50,602 bases of DNA, from contig CADABS010000016.1 in NCBI GenBank assembly GCA_902786245.1, positions 1-50,602 on the forward strand. Reading direction: 5' to 3'. Under the pieces are notes generated by a model. That model did not search any database and was not told where the DNA came from. It saw only the letters and a program-made list of their open reading frames with translations. Below are positions 5,869 to 50,525 of this stretch, piece after piece (positions within the stretch are counted from its first letter, which is position 1; every line of letters begins with the position of its first letter). Source of the DNA: an uncultured Erysipelotrichaceae bacterium. Lineage in GTDB: Bacteria; Bacillota_I; Bacilli_A; Erysipelotrichales; Erysipelotrichaceae. The translations under genes were made by a program, and so were the position numbers.

Positions 5869-8015
5869 TCAGGGACCTGTATAAAGAAGGGTACACACAG
5901 AACCGGGAACTGTCCTGGCTCCATTTTGACGACCGCTGCCTCAATGAGGCAAAAGACGAAACCGTGCCGCTGCTGGAGAGACTGAAATTTGTCAGTATCT
6001 ATACATCCAATCTGAATGAATTTTTCCGCGTCCGGGTAGGCAGTCTGTATGATATGGCGAAGGCCAGTGTCACCAAGGTAGACAATAAATCCGGCCTGAC
6101 ACCGCGGGAACAGCTGAATGCCATCTATCCGGCTGCCAAGCGGGGATGCCGGAAAAGAGACAAGGTTTTTGCCGACCTGCGGAAGAAACTGAATAAGGCA
6201 GGGGTGGAAGATCTGAGCCTGCTGGAATGCGATAAAGATGAAATGAAATTCATCCGCAAATACTTCCGTTCGCAGGTTGCGCCGCTTCTGACACCGCAGA
6301 TCGTCGATGCCAGACATCCGTTCCCGAATCTGCAGAACAATGCGGTATATGTCGCAGCGATCATCAAATACAGAAACAGGAGTGTCTTCAGCTTTGTGCC
6401 GATGCCGGAAGCCCTGCCGGCAATTATCGTTCTGCCGCATAAGAAGAAATTCCGCTTCGTCCATACCGAAGATCTTCTGCTGTATTATGCCGATGAGATC
6501 TTCAAAGATGCACAGATTCAGGAAATCATGAAGATTTCCGTGCACAGAAGTGCATATATCGATGTCGATGACGAAGCATTTGACGATATTACCGATTACC
6601 GCAAGAAAATGCTCAAGGTACTCAAGGAACGCCGCAAGATGCATGTCATCCGTCTGGTCTGTTCCAAAAAGCCGGGCAAGGAATTCAAGAAATATCTCCA
6701 TGCGAATCTGAGTATCGGCGACAGGGAAACCTTTGTATGCAATGTGCCGATGAATCTGAAATATACGTTCGGCCTGGAGAAAATGATCCCGGAGGAAATG
6801 CGGGACGGACTGGTGTATCCGGAATATGTACCGAAGCTGTCTCCTTCACTGAATTACAAGAGAAAACTGTTTCCGCAGATCCAGAAAAAGAATGTTCTGA
6901 TGAACTACCCCTATGAATCCATGGAACCGTTCCTGCAGCTGGTGAAGGAAGCGGCTGCCGATCCTGCTGTTGTGTCCATCAAGATTACGATCTACCGTCT
7001 GGCATCGCATGCCAAGCTTGTCGATTATCTCTGCCAGGCATCGGAAAACGGCAAGGAAGTCGAGGTGCTGATTGAACTGAAGGCACGCTTTGATGAACAG
7101 AACAACATCGACTATTCCGAGCGTCTCGAAGATGCCGGATGCCATGTGATTTACGGCTTTGAAAACTATAAAGTCCATTCCAAGATCTGCCTGATCACAA
7201 AAATGGAAAAGGGACATCCTTCGCACTGCGCTCTGATCTCCACCGGCAATTTCAATGAAAATACGGCGAAGCAGTATACGGATCTTGCCTATATGACCGC
7301 AGATCCGAAGGTGATCAAAGATGCGGTGGCATTCTTCCAGAACATGTCGATCGGAAAACTGGACGGATCGTATCAGACCCTGCTGGTGGCACCGGTCAGT
7401 CTGAAGAGCACGCTGATCGAACTGATTGAAAAGGAAACAGAGAAAAAAGATAAGGGATATATCTTTGCCAAGGTCAATTCGATTACCGATGAAGAGATCA
7501 TCGTCAAGCTGAAAGAAGCATCCTGTGCCGGGGTGAAGATCACGCTGCTGGTCAGAGGCATCTGCTGTATCCTGCCGGGTGTACCCGGAAAGACGGAGAA
7601 TATCGAGGTGCGTCAGATCGTCGGCCGATACCTTGAACATTCCCGGATCTATATTTTCGGTACGGGAAGAAGCGAAAAGATGTATATCTCCTCCGCGGAT
7701 TTCATGACGAGAAATACCGAGCGCAGAGTGGAAATCGCCTGCCCTGTCACCGATGAAGAATCGCGTGCGAAGATCCATACCTATGTGGATGTCTGTCTCA
7801 GTGACAATACCAAGGTCAGGATTCTGTTCCCGAACGGACGCTATCACAAATATGCCGGAGAGATTACGGAACCGGTCATTGCCCAGGATGTCATCATGGC
7901 CAGTACAAAGGGAACAGTGCCGCAGGCGGTGCAGAGCACTGCCGCAAAACCGGCGGCAACGGTTTTTCCGACGGTCTATAAGCAGAAGAAAAAGAAGAGC
8001 AGGAAAGAAGTATGA
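5865..8015 (+). CDS. ppk1: Polyphosphate kinase 1
   Basis: The 716-residue protein matches PPK1 in length and domain order: N-domain beginning 'NRELSWLHFDDRCLNEA', head domain, then two phospholipase D-like catalytic domains. The autophosphorylated His is H438 in 'YKVHSKICLI'; a second motif 'RNTERRVEIACPV' lies near residue 610. It reversibly makes long-chain polyphosphate from ATP. It overlaps both neighbours by 4 bases (ATGA at 5865 and at 8012), so it is translated with MsrA and the nucleoside kinase. The C-terminal 40 residues are Ala/Thr/Lys-rich and lie outside the conserved fold. Confidence 0.95.
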   Translation: MIRDLYKEGYTQNRELSWLHFDDRCLNEAKDETVPLLERLKFVSIYTSNLNEFFRVRVGSLYDMAKASVTKVDNKSGLTPREQLNAIYPAAKRGCRKRDKVFADLRKKLNKAGVEDLSLLECDKDEMKFIRKYFRSQVAPLLTPQIVDARHPFPNLQNNAVYVAAIIKYRNRSVFSFVPMPEALPAIIVLPHKKKFRFVHTEDLLLYYADEIFKDAQIQEIMKISVHRSAYIDVDDEAFDDITDYRKKMLKVLKERRKMHVIRLVCSKKPGKEFKKYLHANLSIGDRETFVCNVPMNLKYTFGLEKMIPEEMRDGLVYPEYVPKLSPSLNYKRKLFPQIQKKNVLMNYPYESMEPFLQLVKEAAADPAVVSIKITIYRLASHAKLVDYLCQASENGKEVEVLIELKARFDEQNNIDYSERLEDAGCHVIYGFENYKVHSKICLITKMEKGHPSHCALISTGNFNENTAKQYTDLAYMTADPKVIKDAVAFFQNMSIGKLDGSYQTLLVAPVSLKSTLIELIEKETEKKDKGYIFAKVNSITDEEIIVKLKEASCAGVKITLLVRGICCILPGVPGKTENIEVRQIVGRYLEHSRIYIFGTGRSEKMYISSADFMTRNTERRVEIACPVTDEESRAKIHTYVDVCLSDNTKVRILFPNGRYHKYAGEITEPVIAQDVIMASTKGTVPQAVQSTAAKPAATVFPTVYKQKKKKSRKEV

Positions 8016-9670
8016 TCAGAATTGAACTCAGCTGCAATCGTATGCCATGCGGTGCAGTGGAAGCGGAAAAGGGAATCACACCGCGTCAGCTGCTGCCGCT
8101 GGTTCATGCCCGATATCCGGTATATGCCTGCCGGATCGCACACAGATATGAACGGCTGGACGAGCCTCTGACAGAGTCATGCACGGTTGAATTCGGCGAT
8201 CTGCGGGATCCGTACGGAAATATGGCATACCAGGGGTCTTTGACCCTGATGTATATGAAGGCAGTGCATGACATACTGGGAAAAGATGTCAGGATCACCA
8301 TTGCCAATTCTCTTTCCAAAGGTCTGTTCACCAGGATCCATATTTCATCCGTGACCGATGAAGTTGCCGCAAAGATCCAGAAGCGGATGGAAGAACTGGC
8401 CGGGGAGAATCTGCCGATCACAGAAAAAAGAATGAGCAGGGAAGAGGCAATCGGATACTGCCGTGAACACGGAAACAGGGAAGAACTGCACCTGCTGGAA
8501 ACCGCACCGGATCTTCGGACGGCATATCTGGCAGTCCTGGATGATGAGGAATGTCTGTTCTATCTTCATCTGGTTCCGGATACAGGAATGCTGAATCTGT
8601 TTGAGGTGCGCAGATACCGGAGCGGTATACTGCTGCGCTTCCCGCAGCCGGCGGATCCGGCCCGGGTTCCGGTATATACGGAACAGAAACTTCTCTATGA
8701 AGCATTTTCGGAAGAATCGCACTGGCAGAATCTGATGGGTGTGCGCTATGCCGGCGATCTGAATGACAAGGTGATGAACAATGATATCAAGGATCTTGTC
8801 ATGTTAAGCGAAGCACTGCATGAAAAGAAGATTGCCGAGATCGCGGAAGAGATCCGCTCCAGCCGCAAAAGGATCATTCTGATTGCCGGACCTTCTTCTT
8901 CCGGCAAGACAACATTTGCGAAACGGCTCTGTACACAGCTGCGGGTATGCGGTCTCAAGCCGCTGTATCTGGGCACCGATGACTATTTCATAGACCGGGA
9001 TGATATGCCGGTCGATGAAAACGGCGAAAGAAACTTTGAAGATCTCAGTGCAGTCGACGTAAAATTGTTTGAAGAACAGATGAATGATCTGCTCAGCGGC
9101 AGGAAGACAGACATCCCGGAATTCGATTTCATTGACGGAAAGAAGATCTTCGGCCGCCGGATCACATCCATTGATTCTTCGCAGCCCATCGTCATTGAAG
9201 GAATTCACGGTCTGAATCCGGAACTGACGGCGGATATCGATGATGAGCAGAAATTCAAGATTTATATCTCTCCGCTGACCCAGCTGAATATCGATATGCA
9301 TCACCGGGTCCCGACAACGGATGCGCGGAAGCTGAGAAGAATGGTCAGAGACTACCGGACCAGAGGAAGAAGCGCACAGACGACGATCCATGACTGGCCC
9401 AGTGTCAGAGCAGGAGAAGAAAAGAACATCTTCCCGTATAACGGCGAAGCGGATGTATTCTTCAACAGCCAGTGTCTGTATGAACTGGCGGTTCTCAAGA
9501 AGTATGCCGGACCGCTGCTGGATGAAATCACCGAGGATATGCCGGAGTATGCGGAAGCCAACCGGATGCGCCGTTTCCTGGATTTCTTTGTGCCGATCGA
9601 GGATGATTCGGTAATACCGAATACTTCCATCGTGAGGGAATTCATCGGCGGCAGCGTGATCGTAGGATAG
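8012..9670 (+). CDS. Nucleoside (uridine-type) kinase with threonyl-tRNA-synthetase-like N-terminus
   Basis: A 552-residue protein. The first about 60 residues look like a TGS-type domain, followed to about residue 270 by a segment resembling the editing-side N2 domain of threonyl-tRNA synthetase ('GLFTRIHISSVTDEVAAKIQKRMEEL'). From about residue 285 comes a uridine-kinase/phosphoribulokinase fold: Walker A GPSSSGKTT (K299), 'LYLGTDDYFIDRDDMP', 'PEFDFIDGKK'. This architecture is common in Firmicutes, where it is annotated as nucleoside kinase; true substrate is unproved. Coupled to ppk1 by ATGA overlap; possibly it draws on the same nucleotide pool. Confidence 0.85.
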   Translation: MIRIELSCNRMPCGAVEAEKGITPRQLLPLVHARYPVYACRIAHRYERLDEPLTESCTVEFGDLRDPYGNMAYQGSLTLMYMKAVHDILGKDVRITIANSLSKGLFTRIHISSVTDEVAAKIQKRMEELAGENLPITEKRMSREEAIGYCREHGNREELHLLETAPDLRTAYLAVLDDEECLFYLHLVPDTGMLNLFEVRRYRSGILLRFPQPADPARVPVYTEQKLLYEAFSEESHWQNLMGVRYAGDLNDKVMNNDIKDLVMLSEALHEKKIAEIAEEIRSSRKRIILIAGPSSSGKTTFAKRLCTQLRVCGLKPLYLGTDDYFIDRDDMPVDENGERNFEDLSAVDVKLFEEQMNDLLSGRKTDIPEFDFIDGKKIFGRRITSIDSSQPIVIEGIHGLNPELTADIDDEQKFKIYISPLTQLNIDMHHRVPTTDARKLRRMVRDYRTRGRSAQTTIHDWPSVRAGEEKNIFPYNGEADVFFNSQCLYELAVLKKYAGPLLDEITEDMPEYAEANRMRRFLDFFVPIEDDSVIPNTSIVREFIGGSVIVG

Positions 9671-9680
9671 CAGGTGAACA

Positions 9681-10205
9681 ATGGCATTTATGGAACTTGC
9701 AAAGAACCGGTATTCGGAAAGATATTTCGATACCCGTCCGGTAGAACAGGAAAAGATCTCTCTGATCATTGAAGCGGGCAGAACAGCGCCGACGGCATGC
9801 AATTATCAGCCCCAGCGCATCTATGTGCTGCAGAGCAAAGAAGCACTGCAGAAAGCCAGAAGTATCCGTGTTTCCCATTTCAATGCGCCTTTGATGATGC
9901 TGGTATGCTATGACATGAATACGGCATGGAGAAATCCCGGCGACCGCTGGTATGAGAATTATTGTTCCGGCGAGCAGGACGCTTCGATCGTCGCGGCCAC
10001 GATGATGTATGAGGCAGAGGAACTGGGTGTGCACAGCGTCTGGCTGCGCGGGTTTGATTCCCAGGAGGTTTCGGAAGTGTTTGATCTTCCGGAAAACCAT
10101 ATCCCGGTCATGATGTTTGCGATGGGATATCCCTCCGATACATCAAAACCGAGTCCCTGGCATTTCCAGAGGAAACCGGCGGAAGAAACGGTAAAGATTT
10201 TATAA
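9681..10205 (+). CDS. Nitroreductase-family flavoprotein
   Basis: A 174-residue FMN-dependent nitroreductase-fold protein: N-terminal 'ELAKNRYSERYFDTRPVEQEKI' (the RYSxRxF FMN-phosphate motif), 'EAGRTAPTACNYQPQRIYVL' and 'MMYEAEELGVHSVWLRGFD'. The family reduces nitro compounds, quinones or flavins with NAD(P)H; substrate cannot be read from sequence. It follows the nucleoside kinase by 10 bases and ends the operon at a bidirectional hairpin. Confidence 0.88.
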   Translation: MAFMELAKNRYSERYFDTRPVEQEKISLIIEAGRTAPTACNYQPQRIYVLQSKEALQKARSIRVSHFNAPLMMLVCYDMNTAWRNPGDRWYENYCSGEQDASIVAATMMYEAEELGVHSVWLRGFDSQEVSEVFDLPENHIPVMMFAMGYPSDTSKPSPWHFQRKPAEETVKIL

Positions 10206-10212
10206 GACAATG

Positions 10213-10234
10213 AAAGGCTGCCGGGCAGCCTTTT
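10213..10234. terminator. Bidirectional terminator between nitroreductase and AraC genes
   Basis: The 9-bp stem AAAGGCTGC/GCAGCCTTT with a CGG loop carries T-runs at both ends when read on either strand. It sits between two convergent genes whose stops are at 10205 and 10238. Confidence 0.75.
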
Positions 10235-10237
10235 CAA

Positions 10238-11473
10238 TCAGTGATTCTTTGTTTTCTTCCGGTACTGGGCAGGGGTGCATCCTTCTGCATTGCGGAAACA
10301 CTGAATAAAGTAATTGGGTGTATTGAATGCCAGTTTTTCCGAGATTTCCGAGATCGGCAGAGAGGTTGTTTCAAGCAGGATTTTTGCCCGGGATATCTTT
10401 TTGGAACGGATGTAGGTGCTGAGGGAAACACCGGTCTCTTTTTTGAATTTATCGGTCAGATAATACTCGGTATAGCCGACCAGCTGTGCCAGATCAGCGG
10501 CGCTGAGTTTCTGATCCGTATGCAGTTCGATGTAGTCGCAGCATTTCTGGACGGCATGGGAGTAATCCGGATTGGAGCGGGCATAGTGAACCCGGCAGAT
10601 GAAATCGTGATACATGGCATGGGCCAGTTTTCCGAGTTCACCGGAATCGCGGCAGTCTTCTGTATTCTGTATATAGGAATCACCCAGCGGATAGGCAATT
10701 TCAGGCGACAGGCCTCCGTCCATGGCTGCCCGCGTCACCAGGGTGATAAAGACGATGATGCTCGTTTTCATCTGCCGCAGGGGATCGCGTCCGTGCACCG
10801 GTACACCGGGAGAGATATCTGCGCTTGACTGCAGGGCATCATGATAATTGATATTGCCTTCCCGTACCATCTGCAGCAAAACCTGTTCGTTTTTGCGGAC
10901 CTGCATGCGGTTGCGCTTCGTGACCGGTTTTTCATCAGGCACCGGTACGGGATTCTGTCCGTCCTGCAGGATCTCAAGGCCTTCCTGTACGCCGTTCAGC
11001 GTGTTATGCAGGAGAACCGTATAGCGGCTGAAAACGGAATAGGAAATGACCGGAGCGTCCGCAAGCGAGGAACACAGTGCATCGATCCAGGCGAGATTTC
11101 TGTATCCGGGCGCTTCATTGTGGAGAGCGGTTTTCAGCTGATCCGGATCGGGAGCGGAATAAAAGACGGGACCGATGACAAAGAAGCAGTCTCTGTTTCT
11201 TTCGGTTTCCAGGGTGACTGCCCACTGCATGCCGACAGCGCTGCCGATGAGTACCGGTACATGTTTTCCCAGACGTACCGTTTCCTTTGCCTTTTCCATG
11301 GCGCCGAGTTCGATAAAGGCTTTTTCAAACGGATGGACAAGATGCGAAGGACAGCGGGAGGCGATATAGGTTCCGTCGTTTCTGTAGCACCAGATATACA
11401 GTTTTTCACCTGCCGGGATGATAGATTCGACAAGCATGAGATTGGCTTCTGCGCCGGTGATTCCCTGTTTCAT
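10238..11473 (-). CDS. AraC-family transcriptional regulator
   Basis: A 411-residue regulator. The last 100 residues hold the double helix-turn-helix ('KLSAADLAQLVGYTEYYLTDKFKKETG' then 'LPISEISEKLAFNTPNYFIQCFRNAEGCTPAQYRKK'). The first 300 residues are a large alpha/beta sensory region without a recognisable cupin, probably a ligand-binding domain. The start at 11473 has AAAGGAA upstream. It is divergent from the symporter/glycosidase operon at 11704, so that operon is its most likely target. Confidence 0.88.
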   Translation of the reverse strand: MKQGITGAEANLMLVESIIPAGEKLYIWCYRNDGTYIASRCPSHLVHPFEKAFIELGAMEKAKETVRLGKHVPVLIGSAVGMQWAVTLETERNRDCFFVIGPVFYSAPDPDQLKTALHNEAPGYRNLAWIDALCSSLADAPVISYSVFSRYTVLLHNTLNGVQEGLEILQDGQNPVPVPDEKPVTKRNRMQVRKNEQVLLQMVREGNINYHDALQSSADISPGVPVHGRDPLRQMKTSIIVFITLVTRAAMDGGLSPEIAYPLGDSYIQNTEDCRDSGELGKLAHAMYHDFICRVHYARSNPDYSHAVQKCCDYIELHTDQKLSAADLAQLVGYTEYYLTDKFKKETGVSLSTYIRSKKISRAKILLETTSLPISEISEKLAFNTPNYFIQCFRNAEGCTPAQYRKKTKNH

Positions 11474-11561
11474 TGCGAATATTCCTTTCCTATATTGTTA
11501 TTTTAACATTTTTATGATTCTTATAGAAATGAACACTGTCAGAAAACGCAGAATATAAAGG

Positions 11562-11658
11562 GTGTTAAGCGGTTACATTCATTTTCGCAATTAACACGAA
11601 TTATTATAATTTCACTTCTGTTTTTGGCTTTACGCCAACTCCGGGCGGTTTCTACAAT
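11562..11658 (+). promoter_or_regulatory. Control region and promoter of the glycosidase operon
   Basis: An inverted repeat GTGTTAA (11562-11568) and TTAACAC (11591-11597) lies upstream of a promoter with TTTACG (11629-11634), an 18-base spacer and TACAAT (11653-11658). The word TGTTAAGCGGTTACA (11563-11577) is partly palindromic and, on the minus strand, matches the left half of the catabolite-responsive cre consensus (TGNAANCG). Both are plausible sites for the divergent AraC protein or CcpA; neither is proven. Confidence 0.45.
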
Positions 11659-11703
11659 GAAAACGTAAAAATGAATGACGGGGTCATTCGCAAGGAGAAA
11701 ACA

Positions 11704-13182
11704 ATGGAAAAGGAAATGGTAACCGCAAATTCTGAAACAGAAATTCAGTACCGCAAAGCAAAGCTGTGGCAGATCATTCTTGTAGCTTTCAATGCCTTCA
11801 ACGGCATGGCAGTGTATTTTCTGATCGGTCTGGCCAGCTATTCCGCAAGTATCGGCTATGGCATCGCGACCGTGATCGTCGGCGGTCTTCTGACATTCAC
11901 AAGAATCTTCGATGCAATTACAGACCCGCTGCTGGCATTTGTCTATGACCGCTTCAACACTCCTTTCGGCAAGGTGCGTCCGCTGATGCTGATAGGATGG
12001 GCGATCCAGAGTCTTGGTCTTTTGTGCATGTTCAATTTCTTCTCCAGCAAGGGGCATGGCATTCCGGTATTCCTCGGATTCCATATGCTCTATGTCATCG
12101 GCTACACGATCGTCAATATGACAGCGCAGACGCTTCCGGCGCTGATGACAAATGATCCGAAGCAGCGTCCGACGGTCGGTGTATGGCAGACGGTTCTCAA
12201 CTATATTACACCGATGGCTCTCAATATCATTGTCTACACAAAACTCATGCCTGCATACGGCGGCAGCTTCAACCAGGAATTCCTGAATGTCGTTACATGG
12301 ATGTGTGTCGGTCTTGCACTGCTCGGCGTGATTCTGGTATGCATCGGCATTTCCGAATATGACAGACCGGAGAACTTCGAAGGACTCGGAAAGAAAGAAC
12401 GTCTGAAGATTTCCGATATGATTGAAGTCCTGAAGGATAACAAGCCGCTGCAGAGCTATATCCTCTCAGCCGCTTCCGACAAGATTGCCCAGCAGGCTTC
12501 CTCCGCATCGATCGTTTCGACGATGCTCAACGGTATCCTCATCGGCAATATGGGACTTGCGACAACCCTGAGCGCAATCGGTATGCTGCCGTCCATTCTG
12601 TTCGCTGCCTATGGCGCAAGATATGCCGGTCTGCACGGACATAAGGAGTCCATCGTTACATGGACACGCAGATGCATCATTGCCAATGCGGTGCTGATTT
12701 CCTTCTTTGTCATCGTGCGTCTGACCGCGGGAACGCAGACCATTGCCCATATGGGTGTCACAATGATCGTGTTTGTTCTGCTCACATTTGTATCCAACGG
12801 TTTTGCGATGTGCGTCACCACTTCCAATACAGGTTTCATGGCTGATATTATTGACTATGAACTGGACCGCTCCGGCAGATATATTCCGGCAGTGATCAGC
12901 GGCACATACAGCCTGATCGACAAGATCGTTTCTTCCTTCTCGGCTGCCATTGCGACCGGATGCGTTGCCCTGATCGGCTATACGGCGACGATGCCGCAGC
13001 CCGGCGATCCGGATACTGCCGGTGTGTTCTGGATGACGATGTTCTTAAGATACGGTCTGGCGATTCTCGGCTGGATCTGCACACTGCTTGCCATGAGACG
13101 GTGCGGACTGGATAAGGACGAAATGGTCCGTGTCCAGAAGGATATCGCTGACCGCAAAGCAGCTGCCCAGGCAAAGGCATGA
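11704..13182 (+). CDS. GPH-family (glycoside-pentoside-hexuronide) cation symporter
   Basis: A 492-residue, 12-segment transporter of the major facilitator superfamily. The early 'GFGIATVIVGGLL'-like segment, 'RIFDAITDPLLAFVYDRFNTPFGKVRPLMLIG' loop and 'MADIIDYELDRSGRYIPAVISG' between segments 10 and 11 are hallmarks of the GPH group (MelB, XylP, GusB). It imports glycosides with H+ or Na+. Start 11704 has AAGGAG 6 bases upstream; the in-frame ATG at 11671 has none. As the first gene of a hydrolase operon it probably imports the substrate. A 9-bp hairpin follows its stop. Confidence 0.88.
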   Translation: MEKEMVTANSETEIQYRKAKLWQIILVAFNAFNGMAVYFLIGLASYSASIGYGIATVIVGGLLTFTRIFDAITDPLLAFVYDRFNTPFGKVRPLMLIGWAIQSLGLLCMFNFFSSKGHGIPVFLGFHMLYVIGYTIVNMTAQTLPALMTNDPKQRPTVGVWQTVLNYITPMALNIIVYTKLMPAYGGSFNQEFLNVVTWMCVGLALLGVILVCIGISEYDRPENFEGLGKKERLKISDMIEVLKDNKPLQSYILSAASDKIAQQASSASIVSTMLNGILIGNMGLATTLSAIGMLPSILFAAYGARYAGLHGHKESIVTWTRRCIIANAVLISFFVIVRLTAGTQTIAHMGVTMIVFVLLTFVSNGFAMCVTTSNTGFMADIIDYELDRSGRYIPAVISGTYSLIDKIVSSFSAAIATGCVALIGYTATMPQPGDPDTAGVFWMTMFLRYGLAILGWICTLLAMRRCGLDKDEMVRVQKDIADRKAAAQAKA

Positions 13183-42647: not shown

Positions 42648-42723
42648 AATCATGCCTTTGGTATCCGGAAGGCAGGACAGATTCTTTCTGCCGGTGCCGG
42701 AATCCTGATTTCCAGGACATAAA

Positions 42724-42759: not shown

Positions 42760-42804
42760 GTCGGGATGACAGGATTTGAACCTGCGACCCCTTCGTCCCG
42801 AACG
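42760..42804 (-). repeat. Left attachment site: displaced 3' half of tRNA-Pro
   Basis: These 45 bases repeat exactly at 49011-49055 in direct orientation. They correspond to the tRNA from the anticodon loop to the discriminator base. To the right of 42804 similarity to the tRNA stops. Confidence 0.88.
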
Positions 42805-42857
42805 CCTCCGAGCATGCCCGAAAGCCTTATTTTAAAGGTTTTTTTAGCGTTCACAAC

Positions 42858-42894
42858 GTGACACAGGGGCTTCTCCGTGACACAAATGTGACAC
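42858..42894 (+). repeat. GTGACAC repeats at the left end (candidate integrase arm sites)
   Basis: GTGACAC occurs at 42858, 42877 and 42888. The last two lie 11 bases apart in the context CCGTGACACAAATGTGACAC, which recurs with one change near the right end at 48905-48924. Confidence 0.6.
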
Positions 42895-42900
42895 CGATAA

Positions 42901-44286
42901 TTAACACAGAATGGTCTGTTTTAAGAGTTCTTTTTGCTCAGGAGACAAGTTCTTCAGCATGTTCAATAGGTTGCTGTCAGAAACGCTCTGAGAGCCTGTC
43001 TGAGGCGTTTCCTGAGGGGAAAACAATAACGTCAGTGTATCGCTTGCCTCTGCGTCTTTAGCCTCTAGAGCGTGCGCATAGCGGTTTAGAGTGGTGCTTG
43101 CGTCAGCGTGTCCCAGTCTGTGACTGACAGTCATAATGTCACAGCCTTGAGCAACGAGAAGGGACGCACAACAGTGCCTCAGGTCATGCAAGCGTATCAC
43201 AGGGAGTTTCTCTTCTTCGTTCTCGACACCTGCATTATACCTTCTCAGAATCTGCTCGAACTTATGGGAAGGTGTCTTTGTATCCATCCTCAATCCATTA
43301 TCCTGAATGAATATGAAGTTCGAATTGAACTCACCTCCTCTCAGTGCTTTCCACTGATCAGAATGAGACTGTTCTTCTTCCAGCGAGTGAAGTTTCCATA
43401 GCATGTCCATGCATTGCTGAGGCATGATAATGCAACGAATACCGCTTTTTGTTTTCGGTTCTTTCAGTACGTCTCCTGAGTGAGGAGTGTGTGCAATTGC
43501 TTTCGTTATTGAAATAGTGTTTTTCAGGAAGTTCACGTCATTCCATGTCAAGGCTAGCAGTTCGCCTCTCCTGAAGCCTCCAACGATTGACAGAGTGAAG
43601 TATACCTGAAACTGATATGGAACTGTGTGTGTCTCCCTGTACTCAGGTACTGTGTATTCAGTGCCGTTTGGATGCTTGCGTGTATGTGCCTTGTGAACTG
43701 ACTCATAAGGCTCTGACAGGAACTTCAGGAAGGTCTTGCTCTGCTCAAGGGAGAAGGTGTGAATACTCGTGTCCTTTTGCAGTCGGGGAAGTTCAATCCG
43801 ATCACAAGGGTTCTCTTTGATCAGGCACAGCCTGTAAGCGAAACGGAACACAGAGTTCATTGCGGTTAAGTGTCTCCGAACTGTCTTAGGTGCGTATGTT
43901 GTTTTCCATTCCTGAACAAGGCTCTGAACTTGCAGAGGTGTTATAGCAGTCAATTTCATGTGTCCGATTTTCGGGAGGATATGTCTTTGCAAGGTGTCCG
44001 AGTACTGTTCTTGCTGTCCCTGTGTGAGGTGATCACATGCCCAGTCTGTTTTCCATCTTTCGGTAAACTCAGCAAATGAGATAGATGAACCTGCGTATAC
44101 TTCTCCGTCTCTGACTTTCCGCTCGAACTCTTGAGCAAATGCCTGGACTTCTTTTTCCTGTGCTTTTGGAGTGGTTTTTGTAGGTCTGAATGTTTCGTTG
44201 TAGACAATCTGTTTTCCCTGATAGTCTCGTCCGCATGTGACTCTGATCAGGAAAGAACCGTTATTCCTTTTGATTATTCTTGCCAT
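42901..44286 (-). CDS. int: Tyrosine recombinase (phage-type integrase)
   Basis: A 461-residue integrase: N-terminal arm-binding domain (about 1-55, 'IIKRNNGSFLIRVTCGRDYQGK'), SAM-like core-binding domain (about 65-170) and catalytic domain with 'GGFRRGELLALTW' (first Arg), 'HDLRHCCASLL' (His, Arg), 'HRLGH' (His) and the nucleophile Tyr in 'TTLNRYAHAL'. A 55-residue Ser/Gln-rich tail follows the Tyr. It would join the element to tRNA-Pro. The start lies 26 bases inside the end of the repressor gene with GGGAGG upstream, so both are expressed together. Confidence 0.93.
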   Translation of the reverse strand: MARIIKRNNGSFLIRVTCGRDYQGKQIVYNETFRPTKTTPKAQEKEVQAFAQEFERKVRDGEVYAGSSISFAEFTERWKTDWACDHLTQGQQEQYSDTLQRHILPKIGHMKLTAITPLQVQSLVQEWKTTYAPKTVRRHLTAMNSVFRFAYRLCLIKENPCDRIELPRLQKDTSIHTFSLEQSKTFLKFLSEPYESVHKAHTRKHPNGTEYTVPEYRETHTVPYQFQVYFTLSIVGGFRRGELLALTWNDVNFLKNTISITKAIAHTPHSGDVLKEPKTKSGIRCIIMPQQCMDMLWKLHSLEEEQSHSDQWKALRGGEFNSNFIFIQDNGLRMDTKTPSHKFEQILRRYNAGVENEEEKLPVIRLHDLRHCCASLLVAQGCDIMTVSHRLGHADASTTLNRYAHALEAKDAEASDTLTLLFSPQETPQTGSQSVSDSNLLNMLKNLSPEQKELLKQTILC

Positions 44287-45022
44287 GAGTTAACGCCTCC
44301 CATTTCTTCAAATACTTGTCATTCTTTTTTATTGCCTCTTCGCTACGATCAATCATGTATGAGATTCCGTCCTTCTCGACCGTAGTTATTGAGTTCATGC
44401 ATGCGCTCACTTCATCCTCCATTTCCTTTTTCCGTTTGAAACAGAGATATTCGATATAGGAGATCACTTCGGATTGAAGGTCTTTCATGAAGAGGTAGTC
44501 AAACTCTGTGAGGTTGATTGTCTTTCCGTCTTCCCTTTTCCGCTGATACTCGTTCTGTTCATCACACTGGAATGCCTCAGCACTTTTAGGACGTACAAAT
44601 GAAACCTCTGTGAACAGACCTCCTGTTTTTCTGATCGGAGAATACACAGGGAAGTCCTGATCAGGAATAAACTCTTTCAGGAACTTCATGAACTCGTTAC
44701 TCAGTCCAATATCATTTGTGAACTTTTGGAATCGCATGTGCAGACTTTCTGTGAAGGCTTTGTCATACCTGTATTGGTCTTGCTTGTTTGATTGATACAG
44801 CATGTCTACGGTAACGCCGAGTTCCTCACAGATCGCATTTAAGTTATCTTCACTTGGCTTGTGTTTTGCGTTCAGGTAATCGGAGATAGACTTTCTATCC
44901 GCTATACCAACCTGCACTGCAAAGTCATCCTGTGTTCCCCCAGTCTCCGCTTGCCATCTCTTAAAATACATTCCGAAATTCTTTGCGAATACTTCATTCT
45001 GTGGTTTTCTTTCTTTTCCCAT
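44261..45022 (-). CDS. Master repressor with N-terminal XRE helix-turn-helix
   Basis: A 253-residue protein. Residues about 15-70 form an XRE-type HTH ('GGTQDDFAVQVGIADRKSISDYLNAKHKPSEDNLNAICEELGVT' region). The rest is a helical, Lys/Glu-rich domain without a peptidase Ser/Lys dyad, so it is not a LexA/CI self-cleaving repressor. In length, position and architecture it recalls Stl-type repressors of phage-inducible islands, which are released by binding a phage protein. Start 45022 is set by AGGAGG about 12 bases upstream; an ATG at 45103 is in frame but lacks a site. It faces the replication genes across a control region. Confidence 0.75.
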   Translation of the reverse strand: MGKERKPQNEVFAKNFGMYFKRWQAETGGTQDDFAVQVGIADRKSISDYLNAKHKPSEDNLNAICEELGVTVDMLYQSNKQDQYRYDKAFTESLHMRFQKFTNDIGLSNEFMKFLKEFIPDQDFPVYSPIRKTGGLFTEVSFVRPKSAEAFQCDEQNEYQRKREDGKTINLTEFDYLFMKDLQSEVISYIEYLCFKRKKEMEDEVSACMNSITTVEKDGISYMIDRSEEAIKKNDKYLKKWEALTHGKNNQKE

Positions 45023-45235
45023 ATGTGAATTGTTCCTCCTTTGTTTTTTGATTCCCATTCTGTCATACAGATACCAATGAGAATCGATTTTTATCAGTTT
45101 CACGGTTTATAGACTGCGAGAATCGTTTGATACACAATTATTGTGTGAAGATGAAGACGTTCATCCTCATGGGAATTATACGATTCATATCATGATATGG
45201 CAATTCCTCAACCATACAAAAACGGAGGATTAAAA
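45023..45235. promoter_or_regulatory. Divergent control region of the element
   Basis: Between the repressor and the first rightward gene lie three separate dyads: ACACAATTATTGTGT (45132-45146, perfect 7-1-7), GATGAA-GACG-TTCATC (45150-45165) and CATATCATGATATG (45186-45199, perfect). The first and third are candidate operators for the repressor. CGGAGG stands before the rightward start at 45236. Confidence 0.6.
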
Positions 45236-45424
45236 ATGATTGAAATCAAAAACAGAATTATTCGGAAGGCACAGGAGGAGTGTCACCTGTACGGTTATCA
45301 GGTTGCGAGACTGCTGAATGTGTCTGAAGCGACATTCGGAAGAATGATGAGATTTGAACTTCCTGAAGAAGAACAGACACGCATTGCGAACCTGATCATG
45401 GAGGCATGCAATGAAAAGAAATGA
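45236..45424 (+). CDS. Small helix-turn-helix protein (Cro/excisionase-like)
   Basis: A 62-residue protein whose core 'YGYQVARLLNVSEATFGRMMR' is a helix-turn-helix, of the small type found in Firmicutes phages beside the repressor. It may act as antirepressor, Cro-like regulator or excisionase. Start 45236 follows CGGAGG; the ATG at 45197 is upstream of that site. Overlaps the next gene by 14 bases. Confidence 0.7.
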   Translation: MIEIKNRIIRKAQEECHLYGYQVARLLNVSEATFGRMMRFELPEEEQTRIANLIMEACNEKK

Positions 45425-45842
45425 AGAACTGTTTGAGCGGTTGCTGACCATTGTCCCTAAAGGACGTGAGAACGCTATTCCGCAGTGGTATCTTGCCTCT
45501 CTGCTCAATCTCAGTGTGCCTCAGGTGAAGTCTCTTCTCTGTCAGGCAAGAACTGAAGGCTATTTCATCGCAGGTGACCTTGAGGGTTATTACGTCCCTG
45601 TCACTCTGGACGAACTCCATTGTTATTATCGGTATATGTTTCAGGGTGCTATGACACGTCTCCGCAGTTTAGAGGCGTTCAGGAAGACTCTTAAGTCTTA
45701 CGGCATTAATAACCCTGAGAAGGACTTTCCTGAAGGAAAAGACAAGCATGTTGAAGTACCTTCAAAGAACGTCCGTCACGATGAGTCAAAAAGGTTTCAG
45801 CAGACATGCTTTGTGTTCTTCTTTGACGATTTGGAGGAGTAA
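45411..45842 (+). CDS. Winged-helix-like phage protein of unknown role
   Basis: A 143-residue protein. The first 75 residues ('ENAIPQWYLASLLNLSVPQVKSLLCQARTEGYFIAG') read like a winged helix that recognises DNA, followed by a helical middle and an acidic end. It lies between the small HTH gene (14-base overlap) and the primase (stop and start share the base pair TAATG at 45840-45844), so it belongs to the replication operon. Possibly a replication initiator or regulator; not identified. Confidence 0.65.
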   Translation: MKRNEELFERLLTIVPKGRENAIPQWYLASLLNLSVPQVKSLLCQARTEGYFIAGDLEGYYVPVTLDELHCYYRYMFQGAMTRLRSLEAFRKTLKSYGINNPEKDFPEGKDKHVEVPSKNVRHDESKRFQQTCFVFFFDDLEE

Positions 45843-46753
45843 TGAAATACACACGTTTCATTCCTGAGTTCTTCAGGGAACGTGTGCTGTGGTGTGTATG
45901 GAGGCTCGAACTGGGCAAGAACGGAAGACAGACAAAAGTCCCGTACTGTGCTAACAGATCAGGGAGAGCCTCCAGTACCTCACCTGATACATGGTCAACC
46001 TATGAAGACGCACTCAGAGCCTTCAGGAGGGACAAGTATAACGGTCTTGGAATTGTCTTCAGTGAGTCCCTGAACTGCGTATTCGTTGACGTTGATCATT
46101 GCATAGACCCTGACACAGGAGAAATAGACGAGAGAGGCACATACATGCTCAACATGTTTCCTGACACGTACTGTGAACTCTCTCAGTCATTGACAGGACT
46201 TCATTTCTTTGTAAAAGGCACTATTCCTAAAGGCTTCAAGAACTCAAAGGTGAACATTGAAATGTACTACACAGGACGGTACTGTGCCTTCACTGGGTAT
46301 GCATTACAGCCTTGTGAGCCTTCGGAAAATCAGGAGGGACTGACTGCTGTATACGAGAGGTTTAAGACTCCTGAGCCTGTCAGAATCACAAACGATCAGA
46401 TTGTAAAGCCTGTACTCTCGTCCGATCAGGACATATTGCAGAGACTTATGAAGAACACAAAAGCGAGGGACTTATTCAATGGGAAATGGAAAGACTATTT
46501 CTCCTCCCAGTCTGAGGCTGACTTGTCGCTCTGTGAGACGTTGGCATTTTGGTGTGAACGTGATCAGGACACTATTGACCGTATCTTCAGGTGTTCCGCA
46601 CTGTATCGTGCGAAATGGGACGAGAAACACGGAGAGCAGACCTATGGAGGCATGACAGTTCAGAAGGCGTGCGCATATGTGTCTGACACCTATTCAGAAT
46701 GGAGGAAAAAAAGAAATGCTGAAGTTATCATGTGCATTCTGTCCGAATGGTGA
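45842..46753 (+). CDS. Primase-polymerase-like replication protein
   Basis: A 303-residue protein resembling the N-terminal half of phage NrS-1-type primase-polymerases: 'VLWCVWRLELGKNGRQTKVPYCANRSG', 'WSTYEDALRAFRRDKYNGLGIVFSESLNCVFVDVDHC' (where the VDVDH pair of Asp is the metal site), 'TGLHFFVKG' and 'IEMYYTGRYCAFTG'. The C-terminal third matches the helical domain that links to the helicase. It should prime DNA synthesis of the element. In many relatives primase and helicase are one protein; here they are split with a 38-base overlap. Confidence 0.8.
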   Translation: MKYTRFIPEFFRERVLWCVWRLELGKNGRQTKVPYCANRSGRASSTSPDTWSTYEDALRAFRRDKYNGLGIVFSESLNCVFVDVDHCIDPDTGEIDERGTYMLNMFPDTYCELSQSLTGLHFFVKGTIPKGFKNSKVNIEMYYTGRYCAFTGYALQPCEPSENQEGLTAVYERFKTPEPVRITNDQIVKPVLSSDQDILQRLMKNTKARDLFNGKWKDYFSSQSEADLSLCETLAFWCERDQDTIDRIFRCSALYRAKWDEKHGEQTYGGMTVQKACAYVSDTYSEWRKKRNAEVIMCILSEW

Positions 46754-48191
46754 AATCCTTGAGAAGTTAAAGGAACTCGACCCACTTCATAATCCGCTGT
46801 ATCAGATTCAGGACGAGATCACTTTCGGAAGACTGTTTGGTGACACCTTCAGGAGTGTCCTGAAGTTCAATGTCACAGCGAAAGCATGGTACGCCTATGA
46901 CGGTATAAAGTGGACTGAGGACACAGGAAGTGTCATTGTGGGGAGGCTTGCGGAGACATTCGCACGAATGCTGAAGGTATATCTTGCCGAGACTGTACAG
47001 GGGGATGAGACACAGTTTGAGTCAGCATATCAGAAGTTTGCTTTGAGACTGGGAGACAGGAACAAACGCCTGAAAATGATTGAAGACTCCAAGAACCATA
47101 CGAACGTAAAAATGGAGGACTTTGACAGAGACGGTTATCTCCTGAACCTTCAGAATGGTGTGCTGAACCTGAACACATTCGAGTTTCTTGAGCATGACAG
47201 TGAAATGCTACTTTCTAAAGTGTGTAGTTGCTCGTTCAAGCCTGAAGCGGATTCAGGGGAATGGGAGACGTTTATCTCTCAGGTACTTGAGAACGATCAG
47301 GAGAAGATTGCGTATATACAGCGTTTGTTTGGATACGCTCTGACCGCTGACAATTCAAGAGAGGAGTGCTATCTGTTCTATGGTTCAACCACTCGAAACG
47401 GCAAGTCAACCACTCTCAGAGTCATGGAAACGATGTTAGGGAGTTACGCCATGAGCATTAAACCTGAGTCCCTGACGCAGAGGAAGACTGACGGAAGAAC
47501 GGCTTCAGGAGACATTGCAAGGCTCAAGGGTTGCAGGTTTCTGCACTGCTCAGAGCCTCAAAAGGGAATGGTGTTAGACGTTGCCATGCTCAAGAATTTG
47601 ACAGGGAGAGACATTATCACAGCAAGGAATCTCTATGAGAGGGAGTTTGAGTTCATGCCTGTGTTCAAACTGTTCTTCAATTCCAATTGCCGACCATTAG
47701 TGAATGACATGACTCTGTTCTCTTCAGGGAGAATAAAGGTTATTGAGTTCAACAGGCATTTCTCAGAACAGGAACAGGACACACACCTGAAGGAAAGACT
47801 TGAGTCACAGGAGAACCTGTCCGCATTGCTGAATTGGTGTCTCACAGGACTCAGGGAGTTCAGATCACACGAGACTGCTGTCCCTCAGTCTGTCAAGCAA
47901 GCGACAGAGGTTTATAAACGAGAGTCTGACAAGGTGCAGAACTTCATTGACGAGTGTATTTGTGTCAGTGCTGTCTCAACCAATCTTCCTGTGAAGGTGT
48001 GCTATGAAGCCTTCAGGAAGTGGTGCGCTTCAAACGGTTACAAGGCTGAAGGAAAGAAGAACTTCAAAGAGGTTCTCTCAGGAAAGATTCCGATCAGTGA
48101 GACAGGGACGGTTAACGGAGTCACAGTTCACAATGTCCTGACTGGGTACACACTCACTGAAGACGGAAAAGAGTTTGCTTATGGGTACTAA
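46716..48191 (+). CDS. SF3 helicase (phage/plasmid primase P4-type C-terminal domain)
   Basis: A 491-residue protein with a D5_N-like N-terminal region and an SF3 ATPase: Walker A 'YGSTTRNGKSTTLR', Walker B-region 'CRFLHCSEPQKG', sensor 'KLFFNSNCRPLVNDMTLFSSGRIKVIEF' and a C-terminal winged helix that binds origins. It resembles the Rep helicase of satellites such as P4 and SaPIs. Start 46716 follows GGAGG; earlier in-frame ATG (46677) lacks a site. The candidate origin begins right behind its stop. Confidence 0.87.
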   Translation: MLKLSCAFCPNGEILEKLKELDPLHNPLYQIQDEITFGRLFGDTFRSVLKFNVTAKAWYAYDGIKWTEDTGSVIVGRLAETFARMLKVYLAETVQGDETQFESAYQKFALRLGDRNKRLKMIEDSKNHTNVKMEDFDRDGYLLNLQNGVLNLNTFEFLEHDSEMLLSKVCSCSFKPEADSGEWETFISQVLENDQEKIAYIQRLFGYALTADNSREECYLFYGSTTRNGKSTTLRVMETMLGSYAMSIKPESLTQRKTDGRTASGDIARLKGCRFLHCSEPQKGMVLDVAMLKNLTGRDIITARNLYEREFEFMPVFKLFFNSNCRPLVNDMTLFSSGRIKVIEFNRHFSEQEQDTHLKERLESQENLSALLNWCLTGLREFRSHETAVPQSVKQATEVYKRESDKVQNFIDECICVSAVSTNLPVKVCYEAFRKWCASNGYKAEGKKNFKEVLSGKIPISETGTVNGVTVHNVLTGYTLTEDGKEFAYGY

Positions 48192-48276
48192 TGTGCAGAA
48201 TGTGCATTTTCTATGTAAAGTCTCTACGTGAGAAAGAACTTAGAAAAGTTTACATAATATTTGCACAAATTGCACA
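48192..48276. other. Candidate replication origin: 85-bp dyad with paired iterons around an AT-rich core
   Basis: Two TGTGCA hexamers 9 bases apart (48192, 48201) and two TGCACA hexamers 9 bases apart (48262, 48271) are mirror images about position 48234. Inside them TATGTAAA (48212-48219) and TTTACATA (48249-48256) share the same centre. The 55-base core is AT-rich. The position immediately after the helicase gene matches where SaPI origins lie (iteron sets flanking an AT-rich region). No T-run follows; a G-rich stretch (48277-48291) does. Confidence 0.55.
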
Positions 48277-48364
48277 GGGGGGAGGGGGAGGCTGTGGATA
48301 TGCCTCTCCGAACCTCTGCTGTGACTCTGAAAAAATCTCGCAGAAAACTGGAGGGAATTGTGAT

Positions 48365-48721
48365 ATGACAAACGGACAAAAAAAGGGACGGAACGGAGAA
48401 ACCGAACTGTGTTCCATCCTGAATCAAAAAGGTTTCAGTGTACGGACTGGACGAGCGTTGAACTTCGGAACAGAGCCTGACCTGATCGGACTTCCTCAGG
48501 TTCATATTGAATGTAAGAGGTGCGAAACTCTACGTGTGTATGAGTGGATGCAACAGGCAACGAGAGATTCTCAGCGATTCAATGATGGTGTGCCTTGCGT
48601 GTTCTTTCGGAAGAACCGTCAGGAGTGGTTAGTCTGTATGAGGCTGACGGACTGGGTAGAACTCTACAAGGACTCCCCCTTATTCAGATTGAATAGGCAC
48701 TGTCATGAAACCGATGGATGA
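48365..48721 (+). CDS. Small PDDEXK-type nuclease (Holliday-junction-resolvase-like)
   Basis: A 118-residue protein beginning 'KKGRNGETELCSILNQKGFSVRTGRALNFG' and continuing 'EPDLIGLPQVHIECKRCE', i.e. Glu, Asp and ExK spaced as in the PD-(D/E)XK nuclease fold; a mid-helix 'YEWMQQATRDS' and 'VPCVFFRKN' complete the core. Similar small proteins in Firmicutes phages are labelled resolvase or VRR-NUC-like. It may resolve replication intermediates of the element. GGAGGG stands before the start at 48365; the longer frame from 48191 runs through the candidate origin and is rejected. Confidence 0.75.
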   Translation: MTNGQKKGRNGETELCSILNQKGFSVRTGRALNFGTEPDLIGLPQVHIECKRCETLRVYEWMQQATRDSQRFNDGVPCVFFRKNRQEWLVCMRLTDWVELYKDSPLFRLNRHCHETDG

Positions 48722-48906
48722 CCTCAAAAAAAATATATAGCGGTATTTCCGAGTAAATCGCACTAATTCCTGAGAAAAAGGGAAAAATCAGATCGTGCGA
48801 GCGAAATTATGTCAAAAACAGGTTACCCCATCGGTCTGACAGGACTGCGCTTTGTTTCTGAACAGGGGGGGTATATCCTAACGAAAATATAAAAAAATCG
48901 CTGTCC

Positions 48907-48924
48907 GTGACACAAACGTGACAC
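48907..48924 (+). repeat. GTGACAC pair at the right end (candidate integrase arm sites)
   Basis: GTGACAC at 48907 and 48918, 11 bases apart, inside CCGTGACACAAACGTGACAC; the left-end copy differs by one base. Both pairs lie about 75-105 bases inside the attachment repeats. Confidence 0.6.
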
Positions 48925-48976
48925 ATTTCAGAAAAAGCATAAAAACTCTGGGCAAGTCACTAATACATGAAACATC

Positions 48977-49003
48977 AAAAAAAGGCTTATTTCTAAGCCT
49001 TTT
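48977..49003 (-). terminator. Element-supplied terminator of tRNA-Pro
   Basis: Minus-strand stem AAAAGGCTTA/TAAGCCTTTT (loop GAAA) followed by TTT; it begins 8 bases beyond the tRNA 3' end and replaces the terminator now stranded at 42724-42751. Confidence 0.8.
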
Positions 49004-49010
49004 CTTGTAG

Positions 49011-49055
49011 GTCGGGATGACAGGATTTGAACCTGCGACCCCTTCGTCCCGAACG
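49011..49055 (-). repeat. Right attachment site within intact tRNA-Pro
   Basis: Exact direct repeat of 42760-42804, covering the tRNA from discriminator base to anticodon loop. Confidence 0.88.
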
Positions 49056-49085
49056 AAGTGCTCTACCAAGCTGAGCCACATCCCG
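49012..49085 (-). tRNA. tRNA-Pro(CGG)
   Basis: A complete 74-base cloverleaf on the minus strand: acceptor CGGGATG/CATCCCG with discriminator A, D arm GCTC/GAGC, anticodon stem CTTCG/CGAAG around loop TTCGGGA (anticodon CGG, codon CCG), T arm GCAGG-TTCAAAT-CCTGT. CCA is not encoded. It serves as integration site of the element on its 3' side. CCG is the main Pro codon in the surrounding host genes. Confidence 0.95.
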
Positions 49086-49430: not shown

Positions 49431-50513
49431 GTGTGCCGGGCATGGCACATCTCCAGCTGGTGAAAGTCCAGCCACAGGTATTTACCGCCAAGTGTAGTGA
49501 ACCCCAAGTCGAAAACAGGAATGTTGTCGGGAGGCTGTGGAAGAAAGAAGGAGATGTGAATTACCCCGGGAGGTCCTGCGGACGGTTAAGTCCAGACACT
49601 TTCAAACAGATATGGTAAAGCCGGTTGAAAAAGATTTACCGCAGGAAGTCAGCTGAGGTCGTAGTAGGTATCAAGCCTTGGATACTGAAGGACCTAATGT
49701 TTGTATAGTGCGAATCACTATGCGCAAGATTCAGACAGTCCGAATAAGAAGATAGCCTGTAGGCAGAGAAACGTAATCTCTGACGGCGAAAAAAAATTGA
49801 GATGATTCTGAATACTTTACAAGTAGAGGGAGGAGCAGCGAATGGAATTGATTGAGAAGATTCTGAGTGAGGAAAACTTCAACGAGGCAATTAAACGGGT
49901 CAAGAGTAATAAAGGCGCACCGGGAGTCGACAAGATGACGGTGAATGAAATTGACGAATATTTCGATGAACATAAAGGGGACATAAAGAAATCCATTATG
50001 GAAATGGAATACAAGCCTCAGCCGGTAAGAAGGGTCTATATACCCAAACCCAACGGAAAGAAAAGACCGCTCGGCATTCCGACAGTAGCGGACAGAGTGG
50101 TACAGCAGATGGTCGCACAGGAGTTGAACCGAATATATGAACCCACATACAGCGAACATAGTTACGGGTTCAGAACAGGAAGAGACTGCCATGACGCAAT
50201 CGGAGAAGTACTGCAGTATCTGAACGAAGGATATGAATGGGTAATAGATCTGGATATCGAGAAGTATTTCGACACAGTGAATCATGACAAATTGATTTCA
50301 ATACTCAGAGAGAAAGTCAATGACAGAACGACACTGCATCTGATCCGGTCATTTCTCAGAGCAGGAATCATGGAGAACGGACTTGTATCGTCTTCAACAG
50401 TCGGCGTACCTCAAGGAGGTCCGCTGTCTCCGGAACTCTCAAACATATATTTGGATAAGTTTGATAAAGAACTGGAGAGCAGAGGGCTGAGATTTGTGAG
50501 ATATGCGGATTAT
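49431..50513 (+). mobile_element. Group II intron, 3' truncated in this window
   Basis: The 5' end reads GTGTGCCGGGCATGGCAC, and soon after GGTGAAAGTCC, typical of bacterial group II intron domain I. About 410 bases of structured, non-coding intron RNA precede the reverse-transcriptase gene. Insertion just behind a terminator hairpin is the habit of class C introns. The sequence leaves the family at about 50514, inside the RT gene, so the catalytic domains V and VI are missing here. Confidence 0.85.
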
Positions 50514-50525
50514 GCCGAAGTTTAA
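49842..50525 (+). pseudogene. Group II intron reverse transcriptase/maturase, truncated
   Basis: The 227-residue frame covers RT domains 0-5: 'VKSNKGAPGVDKMTV', 'RRVYIPKPNGKKRPLGIPTVADRVVQQ', 'SYGFRTGRDCHDAI', 'WVIDLDIEKYFDTVNH' and 'GVPQGGPLSPELSNIYLD'. It then reads 'RFVRYADY', where RYADD is required: the second catalytic Asp of the YADD box and everything after (RT thumb, maturase X domain) are lost, and it stops at 50523-50525. GGGAGGAG precedes the start. Full-length relatives are above 400 residues, so this copy is dead or interrupted by another insertion at about 50514. Confidence 0.88.

Follow-up and report, generated by a model that had tools for sequence, protein, structure and literature searches.

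Organization of the island

The window, i.e. the whole stretch of 50,602 nucleotides that was analysed, contains a 6.2-kb island inserted at a tRNA-Pro(CGG) gene, and word counts revealed the DNA of this island (42805–49010) to be free of the four palindromes AGCT, CCGG, GGCC and CGCG. The island is flanked by identical 45-bp repeats detected by a repeat search, of which the left attachment repeat occupies positions 42760–42804 and the right one positions 49011–49055 inside the tRNA-Pro gene that forms the integration target (49010–49085, minus strand; identified by ARAGORN and the Rfam tRNA family). The repeat search also yielded three copies of GTGACAC near the left end (42858–42894) and a matching repeat with two copies near the right end (48904–48924), which possibly represent arm sites of the integrase.

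Two of the seven open reading frames (ORFs) of the island are located on the minus strand and code for a tyrosine integrase of 461 residues (42901–44286; PF00589, 1.5e-21; phrog_1) and a helix-turn-helix repressor-like protein (44261–45103; HTH_3 above cut-off, phrog_8), whose start is probably found near 45021. They are followed on the plus strand by a small protein without family match (45197–45424), which might be an excisionase or AlpA-like protein, a 143-residue protein of unknown function (45411–45842; phrog_2113 in PHROGs), the primase half with an NrS-1-like helix-bundle domain (45842–46753; PF22763, phrog_13901), the D5/P4-type helicase half (46716–48191; D5_N, Pox_D5 and DUF5906) and a PDDEXK protein of a RusA-like family (48191–48721; PF24608, phrog_244) with a probable start at 48365. 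The helicase half constitutes a separate ORF beginning with an ATG at 46716 that is accompanied by a Shine-Dalgarno-like sequence. A split of the primase/helicase into two overlapping or adjacent ORFs is also found in the related islands of genomes G042 and G062, while close relatives in other genera contain a single open frame of about 744–777 residues; the split thus looks like a true lineage trait rather than an error. Immediately to the right of the island (49628–50525), a group II intron domain was found together with an ORF for a reverse transcriptase of 227 residues, which has a stop near the contig end.

Searches of the seven ORFs against Pfam and PHROGs recognised no capsid, tail or other structural gene, no packaging gene (such as terS) or capsid-redirection gene, and neither a methyltransferase nor a known anti-restriction gene. 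Phage-inducible chromosomal islands (PICIs) and P4-like satellites are characterized by tRNA integration, a divergent repressor, an integrase, a primase/helicase replication module and the lack of structural genes. The island shares all of these features, including integration at an attachment site with its own integrase and the combination of a replication module with a regulator, and differs from PICIs and P4-like satellites in that no terminase small subunit, capsid-remodelling or packaging gene is recognised. Because of this last point, the island is termed satellite-like only and not a PICI.

Missing palindromes and null models

The analysed island stretch comprises 6206 bp with a GC content of 44.8%. 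Exact counts (0 each) corroborated the claim of an initial annotation that CCGG, GGCC and AGCT are wholly absent, and extended it to CGCG (0), which had been overlooked; among all 256 tetramers counted, solely these four are absent from both strands. The palindromes GATC, TCGA, GTAC and GCGC, described there as present (the last one at least five times), occur 22, 11, 19 and 5 times, respectively, and the quoted expectation of 10–20 copies for each missing word fits base composition alone (15.5–23.6). When the di- and trinucleotide content of the island is kept, 16.4 copies of AGCT, 9.0 of CCGG, 6.7 of GGCC and 7.4 of CGCG are expected, which is still well removed from zero. The four palindromes show the lowest observed/expected ratios among the 136 strand-merged tetramers.

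The third-order Markov model suggested in the initial annotation is circular for tetramers, as it is built from the tetramer counts and reproduces the zeros by construction; therefore, second-order Markov simulations and synonymous codon shuffles, which preserve every protein and the codon counts, were used instead. The total of the four sites amounted to 39.2 on average (minimum 23) in 500 second-order simulations, none of which lacked any one of the four words. In 2000 codon shuffles of the coding part, the mean was 36.8 (minimum 17), and no shuffle lacked more than one of the 16 palindromes, compared to four in the real island. The absence of the sites from the island is non-random and real.

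The host DNA directly outside contains, as reported earlier, three CCGG copies within positions 42661–42720, and CCGG is common throughout the left flank (447 versus 457 expected). AGCT is likewise found at its expected level in this flank (113 versus 104), whereas GGCC (95 versus 176) and CGCG (67 versus 133) are below expectation and thus partly rare in the host, too. CCGG, AGCT and CCWGG all occur at a normal level in host DNA, and the depletion of these words is specific to the mobile element. The host DNA has a word bias of its own, as CTAA and TTAG are found only 2 and 3 times in positions 1–42700 (23.6 and 14.8 expected) but 9 and 11 times in the island. Another genome of the genus contains a stretch with unusually dense CCGG (L035, positions 1000–20000 of contig C60 in G026), in which 200 copies are spread over 19 kb and 38 of them lie within a 3.7-kb segment of 37.5% GC.

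A sister island with the same loss

A search with the helicase through 70 genomes of the genus identified one close relative, 64% identical, in G042. It is part of a sister island carried by a different species of this genus (positions 6354–12351 of locus L033), which is also bounded by identical 45-bp repeats and is located at a tRNA-Pro(AGG) gene. The sequence identities between corresponding proteins amount to 64% for the integrase, 60% for the small protein, 50% for the primase, 44% for the repressor and 43% for the 143-residue protein, while a homologue of the PDDEXK protein is missing in the sister island and short ORFs alone occupy its place. Scans of viral contigs provided no close relative and three distant ones, scans of genome contigs a single distant fragment, and the phage and plasmid collections primase homologues only, all below 60% identity.

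The sister island contains AGCT, GGCC and CGCG in no copy and CCGG in one, and the host DNA on both sides of it is rich in them. For both islands jointly, the observed and expected numbers are 0 and 23.1 for AGCT, 1 and 16.5 for CCGG, 0 and 13.8 for GGCC, 0 and 13.4 for CGCG and, extending the loss to degenerate words, 2 and 21.1 for CCWGG, 0 and 8.5 for GGWCC and 1 and 8.8 for GCNGC. GCGC remains near normal with 10 copies compared to 14.3 expected, although somewhat low in the codon-shuffle null (8 versus 15.6), and GATC is enriched (56 versus 33). Codon shuffles of both islands confirmed the depleted words. TGATCA is strongly over-represented in both, with 8 copies in the island and 15 in the sister island (positions 6357–12350 of L033) compared to ca. 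1.7 and 3.7 in codon shuffles of the coding part.

The specificity of the loss was assessed with 625 overlapping 6-kb windows from 32 stretches of the genus. Four-site observed/expected ratios below 0.638 were exclusively found in windows overlapping the two islands, and the lowest value elsewhere, 0.639, stems from the more distant island of G062. A comparison with homologous elements, as proposed in the initial annotation, gave a divided answer: the nearest homologue is equally depleted, but the four words are not missing as a set from islands with more distant integrases, from the three distant viral contigs or from relatives in other genera or IMG/VR. GGCC or CGCG is low in several low-GC distant relatives, and a distant relative of similar GC content (L034) retains the four sites. 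The depletion belongs to this island lineage and not to the phages of the genus in general. In stretches around fused primase-helicase genes of other genera (L036, L037, L039 and L040), GATC and GGCC were observed below the Markov expectation.

Across their aligned codons, the two islands share 61% of the nucleotides. In random codon-by-codon chimeras between them, sites were regained: the four-site totals averaged 9.7 and never fell below 3 (n=1000), compared to 0 and 1 in the real islands. The shared absence is therefore not due to mere descent from a site-free ancestor. The test is clear for AGCT alone and for the four words jointly. The gap in the word repertoire has been maintained through the divergence of the two islands.

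Candidate restriction enzymes

Two genomes of the same genus (G005 and G052) encode EcoRII-type endonucleases (CCWGG), whose genes adjoin those of C5 methyltransferases. Of 266 genomes of the family, 4 contain an RE_HpaII enzyme (CCGG), none of them from the genus of the islands, and a partial gene of the RE_NgoPII type (GGCC), interrupted by a stop, is present in one of 260. C5 methyltransferases were found in 11 of the 70 genomes of the genus. For the methyltransferases beside restriction genes, a comparison with solved structures gave no assignment of recognition sites.

Discussion

The described data are probably best explained by restriction-site avoidance in an island of satellite-like type whose movement takes it through strains equipped with several Type II systems. 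The island would be a small, integrated and self-replicating mobile element of the phage-satellite type. At each entry into a new cell as unmodified double-stranded DNA, selection would have cleared the common Type II sites, completely in the case of AGCT, CCGG, GGCC and CGCG, and nearly so in the case of CCWGG, GGWCC and GCNGC. A length of ca. 6 kb would imply that few sites had to be removed. As no methyltransferase or anti-restriction gene is recognisable, tuning of the sequence would be the only protection of the island. We infer restriction enzymes as the agent, and likewise the entry as double-stranded DNA and the participation of several host strains with different enzymes. The initial annotation had interpreted the selective loss of palindromes as a signature of long exposure to restriction enzymes, and this interpretation holds as the best reading, upheld by the null models, the sister island and the chimeras; enzymes for some of the sites occur in the genus or family.

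Several observations weigh against this explanation. No candidate cognate enzyme was found in the two island-host genomes, and none emerged for CGCG or for AGCT, whose enzymes lay outside the search. Neither host genome contains a C5 methyltransferase or an N6/N4 methyltransferase above the cut-off. The RE_HaeIII family is represented in none of 266 genomes, and no member of the ThaI family (CGCG) exceeded the cut-off in 254 genomes. GATC is enriched in the islands although a Sau3AI-family enzyme (GATC) is encoded in G012 of the genus; the pattern of avoidance is therefore no plain reflection of the enzymes present in the genus, and a general rule that the island avoids the sites of all these enzymes is not supported. 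In the chimera test, only AGCT was significant as a single word (P 0.011), whereas CCGG, GGCC and CGCG were not. Non-palindromic tetramers such as GCCC (3 versus 18.9 expected), CCCG (6 versus 20.2) and CTGC (47 versus 84.6) are also low, and relative to the host the negative z-scores of CTGC and ATCC are larger than that of AGCT. Such additional context biases of the island make it less certain that all depleted words are restriction sites. Finally, stretches of ca. 19 kb around terminase genes (n=9, from 8 genomes of the genus) exhibit near-normal four-site counts. The idea that a helper phage might bear the same signature was not borne out, as no helper was identified and these nine prophage stretches are undepleted.

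Among the alternatives, an erosion of the sites by mutation has to be considered, in which cytosine methylation in past hosts and subsequent deamination to T removed the words without selection by cutting. Most of the missing sites are of a kind usually methylated at C5, and the C-to-T products are mildly in excess for AGCT (118 versus 90.8) and CGCG (118 versus 103.6), but not for CCGG (98 versus 113.0) and GGCC (78 versus 98.1). Moreover, the host DNA has retained CCGG and AGCT, the prophages of the genus all four words, and a C5 methyltransferase is absent from both host genomes. Deamination is thus unlikely, not favoured and not needed. A further alternative is that the island is attacked at these words by a nuclease which belongs to a helper phage or a rival phage rather than to the host, and that the loss of the words allowed it to escape. 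The accessible part of one article (PMC8791490) mentions nucleases with which phages eliminate satellites, and this counts for such a scenario. However, four specificities at the least, and probably seven, would be required. Moreover, a helper phage was not found, and the examined prophages of the genus are full of the sites, even though modification could protect a helper. We therefore judge a phage nuclease to be quite improbable as the cause.

An explanation by codon usage or dinucleotide composition, according to which the words are missing as a consequence of the encoded proteins and the codon preference, can refer to the host flanks, where GGCC and CGCG also reach about half of the expectation, and to the low abundance of some non-palindromic GC-rich tetramers in the islands. 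On the other hand, shuffles with the exact protein and codon counts never lose the sites together, GCGC of identical composition is retained in the two islands (5 and 5), and L034 still has the four sites at a similar GC content. As a full explanation, this effect is refuted by the codon shuffles and second-order simulations and is accordingly considered very unlikely. Passive inheritance from a site-free ancestor without selection since then would be compatible with the common ancestry of the two islands; it is rejected on account of the approximately ten sites regained by the chimeras compared to 0 and 1 in the real islands, and thus has very little probability. Self-immunity, i.e. the cutting of these words in competitors by the PDDEXK protein which the island indeed encodes, is effectively refuted and hardly conceivable because one enzyme for four unrelated words is implausible and the sister island displays the same loss without a PDDEXK homologue.

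Restriction-site avoidance as the preferred explanation can be related to known systems. In phages, complete elimination of Type II sites concerns mainly non-temperate and less so temperate ones and affects orthodox Type II sites, as stated in the accessible part of the study of Rusinov et al. (2018, PMC6286503). Within that extent, the island is similar in the elimination of orthodox Type II sites from mobile DNA and different in being an integrated element from which four or more sites were eliminated. For plasmids, the available portion of the work of Shaw et al. (2023, PMC10359461) describes that small and broad-host-range plasmids avoid 6-bp targets (by size class also 5-bp targets) to a greater degree, with no significant effect for 4-bp palindromes. 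As far as this portion allows a comparison, both cases have in common that small elements tune their sequence instead of carrying protective genes, whereas in the island 4-bp palindromes are lost outright. Literature searches on site avoidance in satellites turned up no paper on such avoidance.

Although the phenomenon as such is already known, an integrated 6-kb element with a total loss of four 4-bp palindromes, which it shares with a divergent sister island, represents an extreme case. If restriction-site avoidance is the right reading, the missing words would predict which restriction enzymes the island meets, and hence its real host range. We tentatively go one step further and consider it possible, if on balance doubtful, that this integrated satellite lineage has rid itself of the sites of seven or more Type II specificities at the same time, unlike any examined phage of the genus. 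This would mean that, as unmodified DNA, it changes between strains or species much more frequently than its helpers do, and that the list of missing words is a readable record of the restriction enzymes of the true host range.

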